Position numbers and translations under genes: made by a program | Shown: positions 30,236-43,028 of the stretch, in pieces | How the letters are laid out: each line of letters opens with the position of its first letter | Position numbering within the stretch: position 1 is the first letter of the stretch | Origin: Gammaproteobacteria bacterium | GTDB taxonomy: Bacteria; Pseudomonadota; Gammaproteobacteria; Steroidobacterales; Steroidobacteraceae | DNA: 56,233 nt | Assembly (NCBI GenBank): GCA_027365225.1 | Contig: DAHXNV010000014.1 | Location: 1-56,233 of the forward strand | Reading direction: 5' to 3' | The notes under the pieces: model-generated | What the model saw: the letters and a program-made list of their open reading frames with translations, nothing else | What the model was told of the DNA's origin: nothing | Database searches by the model: none

Positions 30236-31945
30236 TCAGCGCGAGCTCGGACGGGGCGAACTGGCGCCCGTCACCGCGCCCCGCGAGGCGCTGCCGACCA
30301 GCTGCGCGTACTTGGCCAGTACGCCCTCCGGGGGCGCCTTGCGCGGCTTCCATGCGGCACGGCGGCGGCGAAGCTCCGCGGCCGCAAGGTCGACGTTGAT
30401 TTCCCTGCGCACCGCGTCGATGGTGATCGCATCGCCGGTGCGCAGCAGCCCGATGGGCCCGGCATTGGCCGCCTCCGGCGCGACGTGCCCGACGACGAAG
30501 CCGTGGCTGCCCCCGGAGAAGCGCCCATCGGTGATCAACGCCACCTGACCGTTCAGACCCCGGCCGACGATCGCGCCGGTGGGACCGAGCATCTCGCGCA
30601 TTCCGGGCCCACCCCGGGGTCCCTCGTTGCGGATCACGACCACCTCGCCCGCCCGCACGCGGCCCGCGAGAATCGCCTCGGTCGCCGCCTCCTCGCCCTC
30701 GAACACGCGGGCTCGGCCGCTGAAACGCTCCCCTTCCTGGCCGGTGATCTTGGCCACGGCGCCCTCGGGGGCGAGGTTGCCGTACAGCACCACCAGATGA
30801 CTGTCCTTGCGCAGCGGCGCGGTGAGCGGGCGCACCATGTCCTGCCCAGGGGGATACGCGGGCGCGCCCGCCAGATTCTCCTCGAGCGTCTGGCCGGTAA
30901 CCGTCAGGCACTCCCCATGCAGCAAGCCGCCCTCGAGCAGCAGCTTCATCAGCGGTTGAATGCCCCCGATCGCCACCAGCTCGGACATCAGGTACCGACC
31001 GCTCGGCTTCAGATCCGCCAGCACCGGTACCCGGCGCCCGATGCGGGTGAAATCATCCAATGCCAACCGCACGCGCGCCTCGTGCGCGATTGCCAGCAGA
31101 TGCAGCACCGCATTGGTCGAGCCGCCCAGGGCGATCGCCACCGTGATGGCATTCTCGAACGCCTTGCGCGTCAGGATATCGCGCGGCTTGAGGCCAGTGC
31201 CGATCAGGCGCATCACCGCTTCCCCGGCGCGGCGGCAGTCGCTGATCTTCGCCTCGCTCACGGCATCCTGCGCCGAGCTGCCCGGGAGCGAGAGGCCGAG
31301 CGCCTCGATGGCCGAGGCCATCGTATTGGCCGTGTACATGCCCCCGCAGCTGCCCGGCCCCGGAATCGCCGTGCGCTCGACCTCGAGCAGCTCCTCGGCG
31401 GAGATCTTGCCCGCCGCGCGCGCCCCGACCGCCTCGAACACGGCCACGATGTCGCGCCGCTGCGCGCCGGGGCGGATGGTGCCGCCGTAGACGAACACGG
31501 CGGGACGGTTCAGGCGCGCCATGGCCATGGCGCAGCCCGGCATGTTCTTGTCGCAACCGCCGACGGCGACGAACCCATCGAAGCCCTCCGCCCCGACCAC
31601 CGCTTCGATCGAATCGGCGATCAGCTCGCGTGAGACCAGCGAGTAGCGCATCCCCGGGGAGCCCATGGAAATACCATCCGAGACCGTGATCGTGTTGAAC
31701 AGCACGCTCTTGCCGCCGGCCGCATCGGCGCCCGCGGCCGCCGCCCGCGCCAGCTCGGCGATGTGCATGTTGCACGGGGTGAGATCGGCCCAGGTCGAGG
31801 CGATGCCGACCTGCGGCTTGCCGAAATCAGCGTCCCGGAAACCGACCGCGCGCAGCATCGCCCGCGCCGGCGCCCGCCTGTCCCCGTCGACCACCGGGCG
31901 CGAGTAGGCGCGCGGATCGATCGTCTCGTTCTTCTTCACGGTCAT
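30236..31945 (-). CDS. ilvD: Dihydroxy-acid dehydratase
   Basis: 569 residues from the ATG at 31945 (GGAA 6 bp upstream, [15 protein letters not shown]). It catalyses the third common step of isoleucine/valine synthesis with an iron-sulphur cluster. Cluster cysteines are visible in [18 protein letters not shown] and [12 protein letters not shown]; also GGSTNAVLH and [15 protein letters not shown]. It is the shorter bacterial form (about 560-570). It lies 80 bp after the aminopeptidase gene and diverges from the ilvC-leu operon. No ilvBN is present in the window. Confidence 0.96.
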
Positions 31946-32025
31946 CTGTCGTTCCGTAGTGTCGACCTTAGCATCGAGCAAAATCCCCATGCGCCGTGAC
32001 CGATGCGGCCCGGCGCGCGGTCCGA

Positions 32026-33429
32026 TCAGCCGAAACGCTCGCGCAGCAAACGATACAACGTCCGAACGCACTGCGCCTCGGCGCCAAGCGGACGCCCGGG
32101 TCTATCCTTAGCATTCCACGCATACATGTCAACATGCAACCAATCGGTCGTGGCGGCGACGAACCGCTGCAGAAACAGCGCGGCGATGATCGAGCCGGCG
32201 AATGGCGTCGATGCCACATTGCCGAGATCGGCAATTCTGCTCGCCAGATCCTCCTCGTAGCCTGCCCACAACGGCATCGGCCACAGCGGATCGCCCTCCA
32301 GCGCACCGATCTCGCACACGCGCTGCGCCCAATGCGCGGGCCGGGCGTAGACCGCCGGCAATTCCGGTCCAAGCGCGGTGCGCGCCGCGCCCGTGAGGGT
32401 CGCCAGATCGATCAGCAGCGCCGGGCGCTCCTCGTCCGCCGCGGCGAGCGCGTCGGCCAGCACCAGCCGGCCCTCGGCGTCGGTGTTGCCCACCTCCACC
32501 GTCAGCCCCTTGCGCGAGCGCAGCACATCGCCGGGTCGGTACGCACAGGCTCCCACACTGTTCTCCACGGCGGGTATCAATACGCGCAACTGCACTTGCG
32601 CATCGAGCCGCATCAGCAGATCGGCGAGCGCGAGCGCGCAGGCCGCCCCACCCATGTCCTTCTTCATCAGCAACATGGCCGGCGCGGACTTCAGGTCGAG
32701 GCCGCCGGTGTCGAAGCACACGCCCTTGCCGACCAGCGTGACGCGCGCCGCCTGCGCACGCCCCCAGCGCAGATCGATCAGCCGCGGCGCGCGCGCGCTG
32801 CCGGCGCCGACGGCCCGCAGCAGCGGGAAGCCGGCAAGGTCTGCACCCTCGAGCACCTGGCAGCGCGCCCCATGCTCGCGCGCGAGCGCCACTGCCGCCT
32901 CGGCCAACTCCGCGGGCCCGAGGTCGTTGGCCGGTGTGTTGATCAAATCGCGGGCGAGCGCGCTGGCGCGCGCCGCCGCACTCGCATAGACCAGGTCGGC
33001 CTGCGGCGGAGCGATCAAGGCCGCCAGCGGCTCAAAGCGCGCCCCGCCGCGGTAGCGTGTCATGCGGTAGCCGCCGAGCAGCCAGCCGAGCACGAACTGC
33101 GTCGCGGCATGCGGCCCGAGCGGCGTCGCCAGCCGCCACGGCAGCGCCGGCAGGCGCTCCGGGGCCCCGGCGGCTTCCCACGGACCGAGGTCCTCCACCG
33201 AGTCGAGCCCGCCCAGGCCGAGCACCGCACCCGCCACGCCCTGCTCCCCGGGCAGCGTCACGACCCGATGCCGCTCGGCGTGAAAGCCGTGCGCGCGCAC
33301 CCAATCGACCACCGCCGCGGGCTGCCCGGCGAGCCAGGGCTCGAGCTCCCCCTCGGTCAGCAGCCACAGCGGCCGGCTCTCGCCCGGATCTGCGCTCAGT
33401 AGCGTTTCATGCGACACGCCGCCGAGCAT
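32026..33429 (-). CDS. Leucyl aminopeptidase family protein (M17)
   Basis: 467 residues. M17 metallopeptidase signatures: the metal-binding lysine and aspartate in [21 protein letters not shown], and [14 protein letters not shown] with its bicarbonate-binding Arg. It is a cytosolic hexameric exopeptidase that frees N-terminal amino acids. The N-terminal 150 residues are divergent from E. coli PepA, closer to PepB-like members. The start codon is close to the divergent ilv promoter, so the two may share control. Confidence 0.93.
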
Positions 33430-33445
33430 AGCGCCTGCGCGCCAA

Positions 33446-33475
33446 TTGACAACAACGCACTGCTTGTGCTGACAT
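33446..33475 (+). promoter_or_regulatory. Promoter of the ilv-leu leader
   Basis: TTGACA (33446-33451, consensus -35) and TGACAT (33470-33475) with 18 bp between them, the latter preceded by TGC as an extended -10. Transcription would start near 33482, giving a leader of about 330 nt before ilvC that contains the leader peptide and attenuator. Confidence 0.6.
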
Positions 33476-33540
33476 CCCTCCCATCATCTCCACTTTGATC
33501 TCTCACCCTGGCACGAAGGCCCGTGGTACCCGCAGCACAC

Positions 33541-33660
33541 ATGACCCGAGTCGACCCGGCGCAGCGCGCACCGGGCGGGCGGCTCGCCCGACTGCCGGTA
33601 CTTCTGATCGGACTGCCGCTCCTTGCGGGCAGCCGGTGCGGGGTGCCCGTGGCCGCCTGA
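33541..33660 (+). CDS. Leader peptide of the ilvC-leu operon (attenuation control)
   Basis: 39 residues from ATG to TGA. Residues 18-28 read LPVLLIGLPLL: eight of eleven are leucine, valine or isoleucine, the hallmark of a branched-chain attenuation peptide. An in-frame GTG at 33523, with GAAGG just before it, is an alternative start. The Leu/Val/Ile codons end right before an antiterminator arm (33632-33644), so a ribosome stalled for lack of charged tRNA would leave that arm free. It is too short for routine gene calling and has no likely function as a protein. Confidence 0.8.
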   Translation: MTRVDPAQRAPGGRLARLPVLLIGLPLLAGSRCGVPVAA

Positions 33661-33734
33661 GGACCCTCAGGTAGGAGCGAGCGAAGACACCAAGAAACCC
33701 CGCACCGGCCCGAAGGGCCGCTGCGGGGTTTTTT
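33626..33734 (+). promoter_or_regulatory. Transcription attenuator: antiterminator and terminator pair before ilvC
   Basis: GCCGGTGCGGGGT (33632-33644) is exactly complementary, 13 bp, to ACCCCGCACCGGC (33697-33709), the 5' half of the terminator stem. A competing early hairpin, CGGGCA (33626-33631) with TGCCCG (33644-33649), would mask the antiterminator. A small stem CCTGAG/CTCAGG spans the leader stop codon. These are the standard alternatives of an amino-acid attenuator: stalling favours 33632-33644 with 33697-33709 (read-through), while completed translation leaves the terminator to form. Confidence 0.8.
33695..33734 (+). terminator. Rho-independent terminator of the ilv-leu leader
   Basis: AAACCCCGC pairs with GCGGGGTTT, enclosing CGGCCC-GAA-GGGCCG, followed by a run of six T (33729-33734). 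It is a strong intrinsic terminator 79 bp before the ilvC ATG, inside the leader, so it works as an attenuator rather than a gene end. Confidence 0.92.
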
Positions 33735-33812
33735 ATGCGTGTCACGGCATGGCGTGTCATGCCGCGACTGTGATGTGACATCCGGGCCGATGGGCCGATT
33801 TGGAGAATCGAG

Positions 33813-34808
33813 ATGAAGCTGTATTCGCACAAAGACGTCGACAAGAAGGCCCTGCGCGCGGCGCGCATCGCGGTCATGGGCTACGGCAGCCAGGGCCGCG
33901 CGCATGCGCTGAACCTCAAGGACAGCGGCTTTGACGTCGTGGTCGGCGCCCGCCGGGGCGGCCCGGGCTGGAAGAAAGCCAAGAAGGACGGGCTCGCGGT
34001 GGCCGAGCCGGCCCGCGCGGCCCGCGATGCGGACCTGGTGGCGATGCTGGTGCCGGACATGGCCCAGAAGTCGCTCTATCAGAGCATCGAGGCGCAGCTG
34101 AAGCCTGGCGCTACGCTGCTGTTCGCCCACGGTTTCAACATCCACTTCAAGCAGATCAAGCCGCGCAAGGATCTCGACGTGGTGCTCATCGCCCCGAAAG
34201 GCCCGGGCGATCTGGTCCGCCGGCAGTATCAGCAAGGCCGCGGCGTGCCGTGCCTGATCGCCGTGGCGCAGGATGCCACCGGCAAGGCGCATGCGCGCGC
34301 CCTCGCCTATGCGCACGGCATTGGCGGAACGCGCGGCGGGGTGCTCGAGACCACCTTCGCCGAGGAGACCGAGACGGATCTGTTCGGCGAGCAGGCGGTG
34401 CTCTGCGGCGGTGCGACCGAACTGGTGGTGCGTGGCTGGGAGACTCTGGTCGAGGCCGGCTACCAGCCCGAGGTCGCCTACTACGAGTGCCTGCACGAGC
34501 TGAAGCTGATCGTCGATCTGCTGCACGAGGGGGGCATCACCAAGATGCACCAGTTCATCAGCGAGACCGCTAAATACGGCGACTTGACGCGTGGCCCGCG
34601 CATCGTCGATGCGCGCATCAAGAAAGAGATGCGCAAGGTGCTGCAGGAGATCCAGGACGGCACGTTCGCCCGCCAGTGGATTCGCGAGAACGCCTCGGGC
34701 CGCAAGCGCTACGAGCAGCTGCTCAAGCGCGACATTCACCACCCGATCGAGAAGGTGGGCGCAGCGCTGCGCGCGCGCATGCCCTGGCTGAACGATCCGC
34801 GCGCCTGA
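33813..34808 (+). CDS. ilvC: Ketol-acid reductoisomerase (NADP+), class I
   Basis: 331 residues, the class I short form. The NADPH-binding [13 protein letters not shown] is at about 23-35; metal and substrate residues lie in [15 protein letters not shown] and [13 protein letters not shown]. It converts acetolactate or acetohydroxybutyrate to the dihydroxy acids used by IlvD, encoded divergently. GGAGA sits 7 bp before the ATG. It is first of six genes for valine, leucine and isoleucine behind the attenuator. Confidence 0.97.
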
Positions 34809-34832
34809 GCAATCCGAGCAGGAGAGCCACCC

Positions 34833-36410
34833 ATGGCAGCCGAACCCGACAAAGTCCTGATCTTCGATACCACGCTGCGCGACGGGGAGCAGGCCCCCGG
34901 CTGCAGCATGACGCGGCCGGAGAAGCTGCGCGTGGCGCGTGCGCTCGCCGAGCTCGGCGTGGATGTCATCGAGGCGGGTTTCCCGGCCGCCTCCAAGGGC
35001 GATTGGGAGAGCGTACAGGCCGTCGCGCGCGAAGTGCACGGTCCGGTGATCGCGGCGCTCGCGCGCTGCAATCGCGAGGACATCGAGCTCGCCGCGCGCG
35101 CGCTCGCCGACGCCCCGCACCCGCGCGTGCACGTATTTCTCGCCACCAGCGCCATCCACCGACAGTACAAGCTGAACATGGCCGAAGAGCAGATCCTGCG
35201 CGCGGCCATCGAGGGCGTACGCCGGGCGCGCGAGCTGTGCGAGGACGTGGAGTTCTCTCCCGAGGACGCCTCGCGCACGGAGCTGCCGTTCCTGGCGCAG
35301 GTCATCGAGGCGGCCATCGAGGCCGGCGCGAGCACCGTCAACATCCCGGACACCGTCGGCTATACCGTCCCGGATGAATTCGCCGAGCTGTTCCGCTATC
35401 TGCGCAAGAACGTACGCGGCATCGAGCGGGTGCGCCTCTCGGTGCACTGCCACGACGACCTCGGCATGGCGGTGGCGAACAGCCTGACCGCCGTGGTGGC
35501 CGGAGCCCGCCAGATCGAGTGCACCATCAATGGGATCGGCGAGCGCGCCGGCAACTGCTCGCTCGAGGAGGTGGTGATGGCGCTGAAGACCCGCGCAGCG
35601 TTCTTCAATGTCACCACCGGGATCCAAACCACCCGGCTGTACCCGACCTCGCGACTGGTCTCGAGCATCACCGCCATGCCCGTGCCGCGCAACAAGGCGG
35701 TGGTCGGGGAGAACGCCTTCGCCCACGAGGCCGGCATTCATCAGCATGGGGTGCTCAAGCACTATTCGACCTACGAGATCATGCGCCCGGAGGACGTCGG
35801 CCTCTCGCGCAGCCATCTGATCCTCGGCAAGCACAGCGGACGGCACGCCCTGCGTGAGCGCGTGCGTGCGCTCGGGTTCGAGCTGGCGGAGGAGGAATTC
35901 ACCGAGGTGTTCGCGCAGTTCAAGGCGCTCGCGGACAAGAAGAAGGAGCTCTTCGACGGAGATATCGAGGCGCTGGTGCTGCGTGCGGAGGGCACGGCGG
36001 CCGGACCCTGGAGCCTCGCGGGACTCGAGACCCACGCGGTGACTCAGCGCGCCGCCAGTGCCCGCGTGCGTCTGCGCCACGCCGATGGTCGGATCGTGGA
36101 GCACAGCGCCGAGGGCGACGGGCCGGTGGATGCGGCCTTCAAGGCAATCGAGGCGGCCACTGGAATCGGCGTGATGTTGCGCAAATTCGAGATCCGCGGG
36201 GTCACCGAGGGCGAGGACGCCCAGGGCGAGGCGCTGGTGTACGTGGAGTACAATCAACGCACATACCGCGGCTCGAGCGTGAGCACCAACATCGTGGAAT
36301 CGAGCACCCAGGCGTTCCTCGAGGTGATCAACCGCATCGAGCAGGCAGCCGCCGGCAACCGCTCGCGCGAGGAGCGCGCCGCGGGCGCCCCCGCGGACTC
36401 GACGCATTGA
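34833..36410 (+). CDS. leuA: 2-isopropylmalate synthase
   Basis: 525 residues. The catalytic HMGL-like TIM barrel starts with FDTTLRDGEQAPGCSM; the signatures VHCHDDLGMAVANSLTAV and GIGERAGNCSLEEVVM follow, plus HEAGIHQHGVLKH. The C-terminal LeuA dimer domain (about 370-510) binds leucine for feedback inhibition. It makes 2-isopropylmalate from 2-ketoisovalerate and acetyl-CoA. It begins 24 bp after ilvC with AGGAG upstream. Confidence 0.97.
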   Translation: MAAEPDKVLIFDTTLRDGEQAPGCSMTRPEKLRVARALAELGVDVIEAGFPAASKGDWESVQAVAREVHGPVIAALARCNREDIELAARALADAPHPRVHVFLATSAIHRQYKLNMAEEQILRAAIEGVRRARELCEDVEFSPEDASRTELPFLAQVIEAAIEAGASTVNIPDTVGYTVPDEFAELFRYLRKNVRGIERVRLSVHCHDDLGMAVANSLTAVVAGARQIECTINGIGERAGNCSLEEVVMALKTRAAFFNVTTGIQTTRLYPTSRLVSSITAMPVPRNKAVVGENAFAHEAGIHQHGVLKHYSTYEIMRPEDVGLSRSHLILGKHSGRHALRERVRALGFELAEEEFTEVFAQFKALADKKKELFDGDIEALVLRAEGTAAGPWSLAGLETHAVTQRAASARVRLRHADGRIVEHSAEGDGPVDAAFKAIEAATGIGVMLRKFEIRGVTEGEDAQGEALVYVEYNQRTYRGSSVSTNIVESSTQAFLEVINRIEQAAAGNRSREERAAGAPADSTH

Positions 36411-36437
36411 CTGGCAGCGCATCCCGGGAGATCGTTC

Positions 36438-37397
36438 ATGCCCATACCGGCTACGCAGTTCATCTGGTTCAACGGCGAGCTCGTTCCGTGGGAGAAAGCC
36501 ACGGTGCACGTGCTCACGCACGCTCTGCACTACGGCTCCTCCGTATTCGAGGGGGTGCGCGCGTATGAGACGCCTCGGGGCGTGGCGATCTTCCGCCTGC
36601 GCGATCACACCCGGCGGCTGCTCGACTCGGCCAAGATCTACCGCATGAGCATGCCGTTCTCGGCCGAGCAGATCGACGACGCCTGCCGGCAGGTCATCGC
36701 CGCCAACGCGCTTGCCCGCGGGGCGTATATCCGGCCGATCGCCTTTCGCGGCTACGGCGAGATCGGCGTCACGCCGAAGATCGAGCCGCCGACCGAGGTG
36801 GCCGTGGCCGCGTGGGAATGGGGCAAGTACCTCGGGCACGAGAGCGAGGAACAAGGTGTGGATGTGTGCATCTCCTCCTGGCACCGGGTCGCACCCAACA
36901 CCCTGCCGGCGCTCGCCAAGGCCGGCGGCAACTATCTCTCGAGTCAGCTCATCGGTGCCGAGGCGCGCCGCCTCGGCTTTCAGGAGGGCATCGGGCTGGC
37001 CCCCGACGGCACGGTGAGCGAGGGCTCCGGGGAGAATCTGTTCGTGGTCAAGGATCAGGTGCTGATGACCCCGGCATTGTCGCATTCGGTGCTCGGCGGC
37101 CTCACCCGCGACACGGTGATGCGTCTTGCCCGCGAGCGCGGCATCGAGGTGCGCGAGTGCGCCATCCCGCGTGAACTCCTTTATATAGCCGATGAAGCGT
37201 TCTTTACCGGCACCGCCGTCGAGATCACCCCCATCCGCTCCGTCGACCGCCTCGCGGTCGGCAACGGCGCGCGCGGCCCGGTGACGGCGGCTCTGCAGAC
37301 GGCGTTCTTCGGACTGTTCAGCGGTGCAACGCCCGATCGCTGGGGCTGGCTCGATCACATCGACATGAACGCGCCGCGAAGCGCGGCGGCGCTCTGA
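36438..37397 (+). CDS. ilvE: Branched-chain amino acid aminotransferase
   Basis: 319 residues, fold-type IV PLP enzyme. The PLP lysine lies in [16 protein letters not shown]; the [12 protein letters not shown] and GITRD-like [18 protein letters not shown] motifs confirm the group. It performs the last transamination for leucine, isoleucine and valine, so its place between leuA and leuC makes this a mixed ilv-leu operon. Its last base overlaps the leuC start. Confidence 0.96.
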
Positions 37398-38800
37398 TGA
37401 GCGCGTCCCTGACTCTGTTCGAGAAGGTCTGGCGCGCCCACGAAGTGGTGCCCGAGACGGCCGACACGCCCGCGGTGCTCTACGTCGATCTGCACCTCAT
37501 CCACGAGGTGACCTCCCCGCAGGCCTTCACGGTGCTGCGCGAGCGCGGCCTGCGCCTGCGGCGGCCCGAGCGAACCTTCGCCACCCTGGATCACTCGACG
37601 CCGACGCGAACCGAGCAGATCTTCGGCGGGGCGCCCATCACGGTCGATGCCGCCGCGCGGCAGGTGCGCGAGCTCGAGCGCAACTGCGCCGACATGGGCG
37701 TGGAGCTGCTCGGCCTGCGCGATGCCCGGCGCGGTATCGTGCACATCATCGGACCGGAACTCGGCGTGACGCAGCCCGGCAAGACCATCGTCTGCGGTGA
37801 CAGCCACACGAGCACGCACGGCGCGCTCGGGGCCCTCGCCTTCGGCATCGGAACGACGGAGGTCGGGCACGTATTCGCCACCCAATGCCTGTTGCAGCGC
37901 AAGCCGCGCACCCTGGCCGTCACTGTACACGGCACGCTTCCCCCGGGTGTCGGCGCGAAGGATCTCATCCTCGCCATCATCGGCAAGATCGGGGTGGCGG
38001 GTGGAACCGGGCACGTCATCGAGTACCGCGGCGAGACCATCCGCGCGCTCGACATGGATGGGCGCATGACGGTGTGCAACATGTCGATCGAGGCCGGCGC
38101 ACGCGCTGGAATGATCGCCCCCGACGAGACGACGTTTCGTTATCTGGCGGGCCGGCCGCGCGCCCCCGAGGGCGCGGCCTGGGAGGCCGCGCTCGAGCGC
38201 TGGCGGCAGCTGCCGAGCGATCCGGGCGCGCGCTTCGATCGGGAAATCGACATCGACGCCGCGGCGCTCGAGCCGATGGTCACCTACGGCACCAATCCCG
38301 GCATGGTCATACCGATCGGCGCAACCATCCCCGAGCGCTCCGATGATCCGGTGCTCGCCAAGTCACTGGCTTACATGGGCTTTACCCCCGGCGAGCCCAT
38401 TCGCGAGCAATCGGTGAACGTCGTGTTCATCGGCAGCTGCACCAACGGCCGTCTGTCGGACCTGCGGGCCGCCGCATCGGTGCTGCGTGGGCGCAAGATC
38501 GCCTCCGGCGTGCAGATGCTCGTGGTGCCCGGCTCTCAGCAGGTCAAACGGGACGCGGAGGCCGAGGGACTCGACCGCATCTTCATCGATGCCGGCGCCG
38601 AATGGCGCGAGTCGGGCTGCTCGATGTGTCTTGGCATGAACGGCGATCTGGTGCCGAAGGGTCACTATGCCGTCAGCACCAGTAATCGCAATTTCGAGGG
38701 CCGCCAGGGCATCGGGGCCCGCACGCTGCTCGCGAGCCCGCTCACCGCGGCGGCGAGCGCCGTACGCGGCCGGGTAACCGATCCAAGGGAGTTTTTCTGA
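37397..38800 (+). CDS. leuC: 3-isopropylmalate dehydratase large subunit
   Basis: 467 residues, of the aconitase family. The 4Fe-4S ligands are visible as the cysteine of [14 protein letters not shown] and the two of [10 protein letters not shown]; also [31 protein letters not shown]. With LeuD it isomerises 2- to 3-isopropylmalate. It is coupled to ilvE and leuD by 1-bp overlaps. Confidence 0.97.
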
Positions 38801-39381
38801 TGGAAGCCCAGGGGCTGCTGCGCTCGCGCACCGTCGTGCTGCCGGTGCGCGACATCGACACCGATCAGATCATCCCGGCGCGATTCCTCACCACCACCAC
38901 GCGCGAGGGGCTCGGAGCGCACCTGTTCGAGGACTGGCGCTATGGGCCCGATGGCGCGGCGCGCCCCGAGTTCGCGTTGAACCGGCCCGAGGCCGGCGGG
39001 TGCACCATCCTGGTTGCCGGCCACAACTTCGGCTGCGGCTCCTCGCGCGAGCACGCCGCGTGGGCACTGCGGGACTTCGGCGTGCGCGCCGTGGTGAGCA
39101 CGCAGATCGCGGACATCTTCCGCAACAACGCGCTGAAGAACGGTCTGCTACCGGTCATCGTCGAGCCCGATGTGCACGCTTGGTTGCTCGAGCATCCGGG
39201 CGCGCAAGTGAGCATCGACGTTCAGTCCACCACGCTCACGCTGCCGAACGGCACGGCCGTGCGCTTTGCGCTTGAGCCCTTCGCGCGCTACTGCCTGCTG
39301 AACGGCACCGACGAGCTGGGCTTCCTGCTCGCACGCGAGAGCGAGATCGCCGCCTACGAAGCTCGACTGGGGAGCGTGTGA
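38800..39381 (+). CDS. leuD: 3-isopropylmalate dehydratase small subunit
   Basis: 193 residues, the swivel-domain subunit. [23 protein letters not shown] and [21 protein letters not shown] are the substrate-recognition signatures. The length is close to E. coli LeuD (201). It overlaps leuC by one base and leuB by four. Confidence 0.97.
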
Positions 39382-40439
39382 CAGTGCGCATCGCGGTGCT
39401 GCCCGGCGATGGGATCGGGCCGGAGGTGATCGCCGAGGGCGTGCGCTGCCTGCGCGCACTCGCCGAGCGGGGCCGGCATGACCTCACGCTCATCGAGCTC
39501 CCCTTCGGCGGCGCCGCGATCGACCTGACGGGCGAGCCGCTGCCCAAGGAAACGCTCGCGGCCTGCCAGAGCGCGGACGCCGTGCTGCTCGGCGCGATCG
39601 GTGGACCGAAGTGGTCGGCGCCCCAGGCGAAGGTCCGCCCCGAACAGGGGTTGCTCGAGCTGCGCCGCGCACTCGGGGTATACGCCAATCTGCGGCCCGT
39701 GAAGGTTCACCCTGCCCTGCTCGGGGCCTCCACCCTGAAACCCGAGGTGTTGACGGGCGTCGATCTGATGTTCGTGCGCGAGCTGACCGGCGGCATCTAT
39801 TTCGGCGAGAAGCGTCGCGATGCGGCATGCGCTTCGGACTTGTGCGCCTACTCGGTGCCGGAAATCGAGCGCATCGTGCGCACCGCGGCGCACTTGGCGC
39901 AGCAGCGGCGCGGCAAGCTCGTCTCGATCGACAAATCCAATGTGCTCGAGACTTCGCGCCTGTGGCGGGAAGTGGCCACGCGGGTCGTGCGCAGCGAATT
40001 CCCGCACGTCTCCCTCGAGCACCTGCTGGTCGACGCGGCCGCCATGCATTTGATCCGCCGGCCGCGCGATTTCGACGTCCTGGTCACCGAGAACATGTTC
40101 GGCGACATCCTCACCGACGAGGCCTCGATGCTGGCCGGATCGCTCGGACTGCTCCCCTCGGCCTCCCTCGGCGCGGGACGCCGTGGCCTCTACGAGCCCA
40201 TTCACGGCTCGGCCCCCGATATCGCCGGGAAGGGCATCGCCAATCCCTACGGCACCCTGCTCAGTGTCGCGCTCCTGCTGCGCCATTCCCTGGGACTGAC
40301 GGCGCAGGCCGAAGCGCTCGAGCAGGCCGTCTCGGCCGCCATCGACGCCGGCGCGCTCACCCCGGATATCGCCTCGGGCGGCCGCGCCGTCTCGACGCGC
40401 GAGGCTGGCGCTGCGGTGCTCGAGAGACTGGCGCGCTGA
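39378..40439 (+). CDS. leuB: 3-isopropylmalate dehydrogenase
   Basis: 353 residues from a GTG that overlaps the leuD stop (GTGA). NAD-dependent oxidative decarboxylase: [11 protein letters not shown] at the N-terminus, [35 protein letters not shown] and the metal-site [20 protein letters not shown], then [17 protein letters not shown]. It ends the operon and faces the convergent metB with a 14-bp gap. Confidence 0.97.
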
Positions 40440-42844: not shown

Positions 42845-42891
42845 TGGGCTGCGACCATCCCCGCGCCCCGGGCGCGAAGCTTCGCAGTTCG

Positions 42892-43020
42892 CTCATCTGT
42901 CGATCGGTCCGGACCCGCAGGCTCGGCCGCATCGCAGGAGTTGGCACCTTGTCCAGGCTGGTTGGGCCTGGCGGTTGCCCCGGCGTCTAAGGGCCTATTC
43001 CCTCAGCCGGTCTCGATGAG
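42892..43020 (-). ncRNA. SAM-I (S-box) riboswitch upstream of metX
   Basis: The 129-nt leader starts with CTCATCGAGA and ends with GATGAG, pairing as P1. In between are GGCTGAGGGAATAGGCCC (P2 with internal loop), GCCGGGGCAACC, and the invariant AAGGTGCCAACTCCTGC (42934-42950), matching the S-box core AAGGTGCTAATTCC. It should bind S-adenosylmethionine and shut off metX-metB when SAM is plentiful. Homologous leaders before met genes are known in Xanthomonas. Confidence 0.92.
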
Positions 43021-43028
43021 TGAGGAAA

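Follow-up and report, generated by a model that had tools for sequence, protein, structure and literature searches.

A putative ribosome-mediated attenuator upstream of a combined ilvC-leu operon in the Steroidobacteraceae

The window, meaning the whole 56,233-nucleotide stretch of DNA that was analysed, is contig 55 of a genome assembly that is 65.6% complete. The closest named matches to its ilvC are Proteobacteria MAGs, several of them titled Steroidobacteraceae or Steroidobacter. ilvC is followed on the same strand by leuA, ilvE, leuC, leuD and leuB, which together span 33813-40439 (Table 1). Since the gaps between ilvC, leuA and ilvE are 24 and 27 nt and the genes thereafter overlap, the six genes are likely a single operon. 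An M17 aminopeptidase (32026-33429, minus strand) is divergent to this operon, as is a minus-strand ORF at 30236-32071, which from a reading of its sequence we take to be ilvD-like. The acetolactate synthase large subunit is encoded at a separate locus away from the operon (G000:C22), where no BCAA-rich leader was seen by eye. Directly upstream of the large subunit, on the opposite strand, a putative small-subunit frame was also read by eye (L196).

Two further features of the window were recorded. A SAM riboswitch (RF00162, 69.9 bits, 42890-43022, minus strand) precedes an alpha/beta-hydrolase, by our guess acyltransferase-like, and a Cys/Met-metabolism PLP enzyme. A Trp_repressor-family protein (PF01371, 43168-43551, plus strand) has hisG and hisD directly after it. 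The histidine regulator HisR, named in the available part of PMC9413887, is a candidate parallel for this protein.

Table 1. Features of the ilvC-leu operon and its leader region, in window coordinates.
Feature	Position	Strand	Basis or remark
-35 element TTGACA	33446..33451	+	read in sequence; recurs in relatives
Extended -10, TGTGC + TGACAT, 18-nt spacer to -35	33465..33475	+	hexamer TGACAT 33470-33475
Leader peptide ORF (putative)	33523 (GTG, 45 codons) or 33541 (ATG, 39 codons)..33660	+	stop TGA 33658-33660
Regulatory codons CTG CCG GTA CTT CTG ATC GGA CTG CCG CTC CTT (LPVLLIGLPLL)	33592..33624	+	
Hairpin 1, 5' arm = Leu codons, touches arm 2	33613..33632	+	folding z-scores
Antiterminator arm 2, GCCGGTGCGGGGT, within leader ORF	33632..33644	+	complementarity; alignment A1
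Small hairpin at leader stop codon, within antiterminator loop	33653..33675	+	folds in 9 loci
Arm 3: antiterminator 3' arm = terminator 5' arm	33697..33709	+	
Intrinsic terminator hairpin (3:4), one C.C mismatch, loop GAA	33698..33728	+	
Terminator T-run T6	33729..33734	+	
ilvC, ketol-acid reductoisomerase	33813..34808	+	TIGR00465
leuA, 2-isopropylmalate synthase, bacterial type	34833..36410	+	TIGR00973, 696.5 bits (cut-off 598.7)
ilvE, branched-chain aminotransferase	36438..37397	+	TIGR01122
leuC	37397..38800	+	TIGR00170
leuD	38800..39381	+	TIGR00171
leuB	39378..40439	+	TIGR00169

An earlier note on this DNA, made from the letters alone, had proposed a complete attenuator in front of ilvC. 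The consensus -35 element that it named is present and recurs in the family. TTGACA was found in the 420 nt upstream of ilvC at 70/83 family loci, with 4.4 expected from composition. The -10 hexamer is weak (3/6 consensus), and the TGTGC before it forms an extended -10 of the type TRTGn that recurs in the relatives inspected. From this promoter, transcription would start near 33482. TTGACA and the -10 pattern also persist at L138, where the terminator is lost, and at L150, where the leader is lost and the -35 lies just 69 nt before the terminator.

The 39-codon leader ORF of the earlier note was upheld in part. The distance from ATG 33541 to the stop codon is indeed 39 codons; the start itself is doubtful, an in-frame GTG at 33523 being possible. 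In the window and five near relatives GTG is present in 6/6 loci and ATG in 4/6 (missing in L083 and L085), although the pattern used to pick these 6/9 loci contains the GTG. The leader may start at GTG 33523 rather than at ATG 33541. No clear or conserved Shine-Dalgarno sequence was found before the ORF in these six loci. Counted from the ATG, residues 18-28 read as claimed, with 8/11 being Leu, Val or Ile.

The exact 13-nt complement between arms 2 and 3, likewise claimed before, is present, and 2000 dinucleotide-preserving shuffles of the leader reached a maximum of 10 nt. The intrinsic terminator with six T was also confirmed between the leader ORF and ilvC by mismatch-tolerant scans; a generic consensus scan missed it, its only hit being a terminator-like site on the minus strand. 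Searched with Rfam at gathering scores, the whole window yielded no amino-acid leader family, the SAM riboswitch being the only match. A lax search of 33380-33820 gave ten weak rows, among which the sole amino-acid leader was Thr_leader, on the minus strand, with a score of 17.4 against a gathering score of 55.

Recurrence was examined in 100 family genomes. An ilvC match was found in 94, and 84 loci were examined upstream, the window's own included. The ilvC-matching genomes outside the 84 are G007, G012, G021, G027, G048, G059 and G099 (partial or weak matches, contig ends), and G037, G050 and G068. Counts of 83 exclude L164, whose ilvC is 58% identical and in whose genome the attenuator precedes leuA. 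The terminator motif, CCCYGC...GYGGGG followed by a T-rich stretch, occurs upstream of ilvC at 79/84 loci and is doubtful in some leaderless lineages. At least six Leu, Val or Ile in the 16 codons before arm 2 were found in 52/79 loci, a level reached by 3.1% of 1580 leaders after shuffling. In 51/79 loci, and in 40/52 of those with the BCAA run, at most 5/100 shuffles matched the best complement to arm 3. The leader ORF and the pairing of 33632 with 33697, on whose conservation in relatives the earlier note had staked its reading, are conserved in most of these loci, with genus g16 among the exceptions for the pairing. In this genus (L141, L146, L147, L152) the complement search finds no good antiterminator arm, 52-77/100 shuffles being as good. 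The g16 leaders nonetheless carry a Leu/Val run and a strong terminator. Altogether 9/52 BCAA-run leaders fail the complement filter, all four of g16 among them.

A second measure, independent of arm 2, classed a locus as intact when a BCAA-rich leader and a terminator were both present. It identified 54/83 loci, one of which, L150, has an ORF that is probably due to chance. L150 was counted as intact at first, then dropped from later counts, those of codon bias and operon content among them. With L150 counted, 29/83 genomes fall below the intact criterion; dropping it leaves 53/83 intact loci in 19/24 genera. A strict pattern of arms 2, 3 and 4 was found in exactly one copy in each of 36/100 family genomes. 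In 34 of these the ilvC match follows the pattern at a distance of no more than 130 nt, and in two (G008, G054) the pattern lies upstream of leuA; the order in G054 is attenuator, then leuA-leuC-leuD-leuB. In a class-wide sample of 229 genomes the strict pattern was found in the window's own genome (G000) alone, and in 0 of the 228 others. Leaders of similar build and other sequence were seen by eye at loci titled outside the family (for example L029, L030, L045-L047, L052, and the sphingomonads L036 and L054).

The RNA elements were compared in alignment A1, which consists of 43 leaders of the 79 loci chosen by BCAA score and arm-2 score. A1 takes 43 of the 52 BCAA-run leaders. L092, L119, L141, L142, L146, L147, L150, L152 and L163 were omitted for a poorer complement, so the antiterminator pairing in A1 is in part a product of selection. 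Core antiterminator columns are paired in 39-43/43 leaders and the first six terminator columns in 43/43. The earlier note had proposed folding and covariation as a check. The core columns of both helices are near-invariant in A1; covariation is small, with both sides changed in only 2/12 pairs of the antiterminator and 2/12 of the terminator, and is weak because the arms hardly vary. RNAalifold on A1 returned 9 terminator pairs, 0/9 with a compensatory change on both sides.

One position differs between the two helices. The eighth nucleotide of arm 3 (column 133) pairs with arm 2 in 43/43 leaders and with arm 4 in 9/43. Over all 79 loci, without selection, it has a partner in the best complement at 67 and in the terminator at 14. 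Complementarity was the criterion by which arm 2 was located, which partly builds in the 67 but not the 14. The terminator thus appears to retain a mismatch that is mostly absent from the antiterminator, which would fit a tuning of the competition between 2:3 and 3:4 pairing.

A competing early hairpin, also part of the original proposal, was looked for in two forms. Hairpin 1, over the Leu codons, is supported on average, with a mean z of -1.07 and 23/43 leaders below -1. Control windows in the same 43 leaders had mean z values of +0.23 and +0.30 upstream and -0.86 downstream, so one of the three is also low. A longer helix, between arm 2 and the sequence preceding the ATG, was tried as the early hairpin and set aside as weak: 5/300 shuffles were as low in the window, compared with 26-108/300 in five relatives. 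The small hairpin at the leader stop codon folds in 9 loci chosen from genera g1, g5, g6 and g22; at L083 the stop is TAA, and the opposite arm of the hairpin has changed to match.

In the leader frame, the codons of arm 2 mostly specify Arg-Cys-Gly; genus g2 (L089-L091) reads the arm in another frame, which suggests that the RNA is conserved and not the peptide. This bears on the possibility that the ORF encodes a small functional peptide, for example of the membrane, while the terminator ends a small RNA or acts as a brake without regulation. The hydrophobic run would suit a membrane protein, and the first leader residues of the window resemble those of five near relatives, loci that were found by a pattern containing those codons. 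The leader peptide outside the BCAA run changes quickly among relatives, however, its composition changes with the operon, and a 13-nt complement to the terminator arm would be left unexplained. Along with the frame change in g2, these points make a functional peptide very improbable.

Folding of partial transcripts indicated when the switch might be set. RNA ending at arm 3 is predicted to form the antiterminator for six of six modelled stall sites. Full-length RNA, ending at 33735, is predicted to favour the terminator at all six. Antitermination would therefore have to be kinetic, decided during transcription. A ribosome stalled on the BCAA codons is predicted to leave arm 2 free if it covers 13 nt from the first base of the A-site codon, in agreement with the spacing argued for at the outset. 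By position, a ribosome at the stop codon would cover merely the 3' part of arm 2. The fold modelled with the ribosome at the stop codon omitted all RNA 5' of the ribosome, and indicates just that the terminator can form.

With a probability of about 0.93, we read 33446-33735 as a ribosome-mediated transcription attenuator of the ilvC-leuA-ilvE-leuC-leuD-leuB operon. If the supply of charged Leu-, Val- or Ile-tRNA falls short, the leading ribosome would stall on the regulatory codons and open hairpin 1. The stall would free arm 2 to pair with arm 3 once arm 3 is made, and this pairing would block the terminator, allowing the operon to be transcribed. When charged tRNA is plentiful, the ribosome would pass over arm 2 to the stop codon, arm 3 would fold with arm 4, and RNA polymerase would stop at the T-run near 33735. 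The parts and their recurrence also favour the earlier suggestion that one attenuator governs a combined ilvC-leu operon that includes ilvE; co-transcription of the six genes is predicted.

A protein or a small molecule, rather than a translating ribosome, might instead drive the switch between 2:3 and 3:4 pairing. Five loci (L121, L122, L124, L145, L151) keep TTGACA and the terminator motif and fall below the BCAA criterion, so the terminator may act otherwise in them. A BCAA run precedes the terminator in 53/83 family genomes, the window's included, with CTT and GTA over-represented, and no Rfam riboswitch or leader matches 33380-33820. These findings argue against such an effector, which we consider even less probable than a functional peptide.

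In the relatives, leader codons track operon content, as judged from few cases (n = 3 and n = 4). The Val and Ile share of the BCAA run, taken in the best 12-residue window, is 0.22 in leaders of operons with both ilvC and leuA (n = 49), and 0.74 in leaders of operons with ilvC and without leuA (L142, L161-L163; n = 4). Leaders before leuA only are nearly pure Leu, with Val or Ile at 0/9 (G054), 1/8 (G062) and 1/7 (G008) positions. Operons that contain leuA differ from those that lack it in the Leu share of their leaders (49 vs 5 leaders, p 2.6e-4, with kinship uncorrected); the five include L150, three of the five are from one genus, and operons with leuA include L086, L087 and L097, in which the start of leuA lies about 2.1-2.3 kb downstream of that of ilvC.

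Leu makes up 78% of the BCAA run where the operon has leuA, and the strict pattern stays with leuA where ilvC and leuA are separated (G008, G054). Both facts would be expected if Leu alone were sensed, with the Val and Ile codons as incidental hydrophobic filler. Filler would not explain why at least one Val or Ile is found in 41/49 combined-operon leaders, or why three leuA-only leaders are nearly pure Leu while four leaders of ilvC without leuA are mostly Val and Ile. GTA is also over-represented among Val codons, much like CTT among Leu codons. We therefore consider sensing of Leu alone unlikely, though well ahead of the other alternatives. The dominant amino acid sensed is probably Leu, with Val and Ile contributing. 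The few operons from which ilvC or leuA has been lost agree with the earlier idea that mixed codons reflect a response to more than one amino acid.

The control codons favour the otherwise rare CTT and GTA, which is odd for GC-rich genomes. CTT accounts for 99/372 Leu codons in 53 leaders and 43/1778 in ilvC, and is found in 43/53 leaders and 17/19 genera; GTA accounts for 35/117 Val codons in the same leaders and 42/1362 in ilvC. CTA is slightly raised (8/372 vs 11/1778), and TTA and TTG are not. The background gene is ilvC alone, and leaders of related genomes do not count as independent. Some of the bias is not confined to control codons, since third positions in the other codons of these leaders are likewise enriched in A or T (odds ratio 2.0 overall, up to 3.5 for Thr, compared with 11 for Leu and 6 for Val control codons). 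CTT may also partly serve hairpin 1. In the part of their paper available, Elf & Ehrenberg (2005; PMC1183508) explain the control-codon bias of E. coli by selective charging of isoacceptors.

Loss of the attenuator was examined in relation to leuA. leuA is missing behind ilvC at 18/83 loci, of which 5 (L142, L150, L161-L163) are intact, compared with 49/65 loci with leuA. In 15/18 loci without leuA behind ilvC, the best leuA match is just 27-32% identical to the window leuA. The sole second leuA scanned, at L171, belongs to TIGR00970, a family over its cut-off in 37/100 family genomes. The attenuator is intact in 11/33 genomes with a second leuA (10 without L150) and in 43/50 others (p 1e-6, uncorrected); the second-leuA label includes G031, G048, G059 and G082, which are below the family cut-off or matched as pieces. 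The ilvC tree offers just five independent, well-supported pairs, and on it the association of attenuator loss with a second leuA does not reach significance. A narrower label based on the leader of the second leuA (1/18 intact with it, 53/65 without) was set aside, since leader variants occur in genomes labelled negative and G028 and G074 are positive by eye.

The second leuA frequently has a leader of its own. A strict pattern for it is found in 21/100 genomes. Like-built leaders were seen by eye in 12/15 further second-leuA loci (not L213, L214 or L221), and L169 also lacks one. The first kind of leader ends in Leu-Leu-Arg-Arg-stop and is predicted to have a hairpin spanning the stop codon, together with two helices that would make up a pseudoknot. 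In alignment A2, 96.4% of cells pair, and both sides are changed in 3/15 pairs, a number reached by 10/500 shuffles; the covariation score was reached by 0/500. A2 comprises 15 of 17 second-leuA leaders, L173 having been missed and L179 hit at the wrong place. Its pairing calls for caution, as the pattern by which the loci were picked favours complementary arms. Rfam gave no match to second-leuA leaders in the 16 loci scanned (L166, L167, L170-L183).

Several observations were made on these leaders. The conserved Leu-rich leader at L171:1248-1336 is also seen at L170, L175, L177, L178, L181, L182, L197, L201, L206, L211, L212, L215, L216 and L222. Leaders of this type stand mostly before a TIGR00970-like leuA, end in Arg-Arg-stop in most cases, and have a stop-codon hairpin and a likely pseudoknot with some compensatory changes. 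In a variant (L200, L203, L204, L205, L217-L220 and others) the peptide ends in LL(G or R)ARLHLRR, either directly before the stop or a few codons earlier. One leader of the second-leuA type, at L197/L223 (G023, C23 near 3056), has no second leuA in the following 7 kb and is an apparent orphan. Genome-wide, G023 has no second leuA over the cut-off, and its ilvC leader is also below the BCAA criterion.

A broader reading of these results, to which we give somewhat less than even odds, is that leader codons are an evolving read-out of operon products. Departure of leuA or ilvC from the operon would be followed by loss of Leu or of Val/Ile codons from the leader. The rare CTT and GTA codons would be hypersensitive to tRNA charging in GC-rich cells, and gain of a second leuA that brings a structured Leu leader with it would relieve selection, so that the old attenuator decays.

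Attenuators of this kind are familiar from the leu and ilv operons of enterobacteria (leuABCD, ilvGMEDA, ilvBN). Like the element described here, they have a leader peptide with control codons, antiterminator and terminator structures that exclude each other, and biased codon choice. Unlike them, the element of the window has ilvC, leuA, ilvE and leuCDB behind one leader, its over-represented control codons are CTT and GTA, and no Rfam leader model matches it. The Salmonella leu leader has three CUA control codons, according to the available part of PMC1183508. The Caulobacter ilvBN attenuator, as described in the part of PMC4117421 available, likewise combines BCAA control codons with a rho-independent terminator in another proteobacterium; its tandem Ile and Val codons precede ilvBN, whereas here mainly Leu codons precede ilvC-leu.

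The actinobacterial LEU element, a Leu-rich leader ORF before leuA with a proposed pseudoknot (Seliverstov 2005, PMC1262725, as far as the text was available), resembles in build the second-leuA leader of the window's relatives, not the window's attenuator. Identity of the two was considered and rejected, the second-leuA pattern being found in 0/20 genomes of mixed phyla and 0/149 from the phylum of G108. G108 is the genome of L069 and is titled Actinomycetes; its phylum was sampled by the 149 genomes. By eye, leuA upstream regions from 12/20 genomes of that phylum look different from the second-leuA leader. The likeness to the LEU element thus appears to be one of build and not of sequence.

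The literature searched (titles and abstract openings, among the papers listed) held no description of this attenuator; an earlier description is possible, many subscription journals being uncovered. A 2004 study by Vitreschak et al. is said to deal with proteobacterial attenuators. ilvC and leuA are absent from the main text of Naville & Gautheret (2010; PMC2965389), in the part available.

The element is thus probably a real and widely recurring attenuator of a known kind, whose working in the cell we infer from sequence. Across much of the family, a merged ilvC-leu operon appears to be under the control of a single Leu/Val/Ile attenuator. Its decay beside a second leuA, statistically not significant so far, may represent the replacement of one RNA control by another. 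The bias toward CTT and GTA makes the idea of selective charging, which was derived from E. coli, testable in GC-rich bacteria, and the family offers natural experiments on what leader peptides sense.
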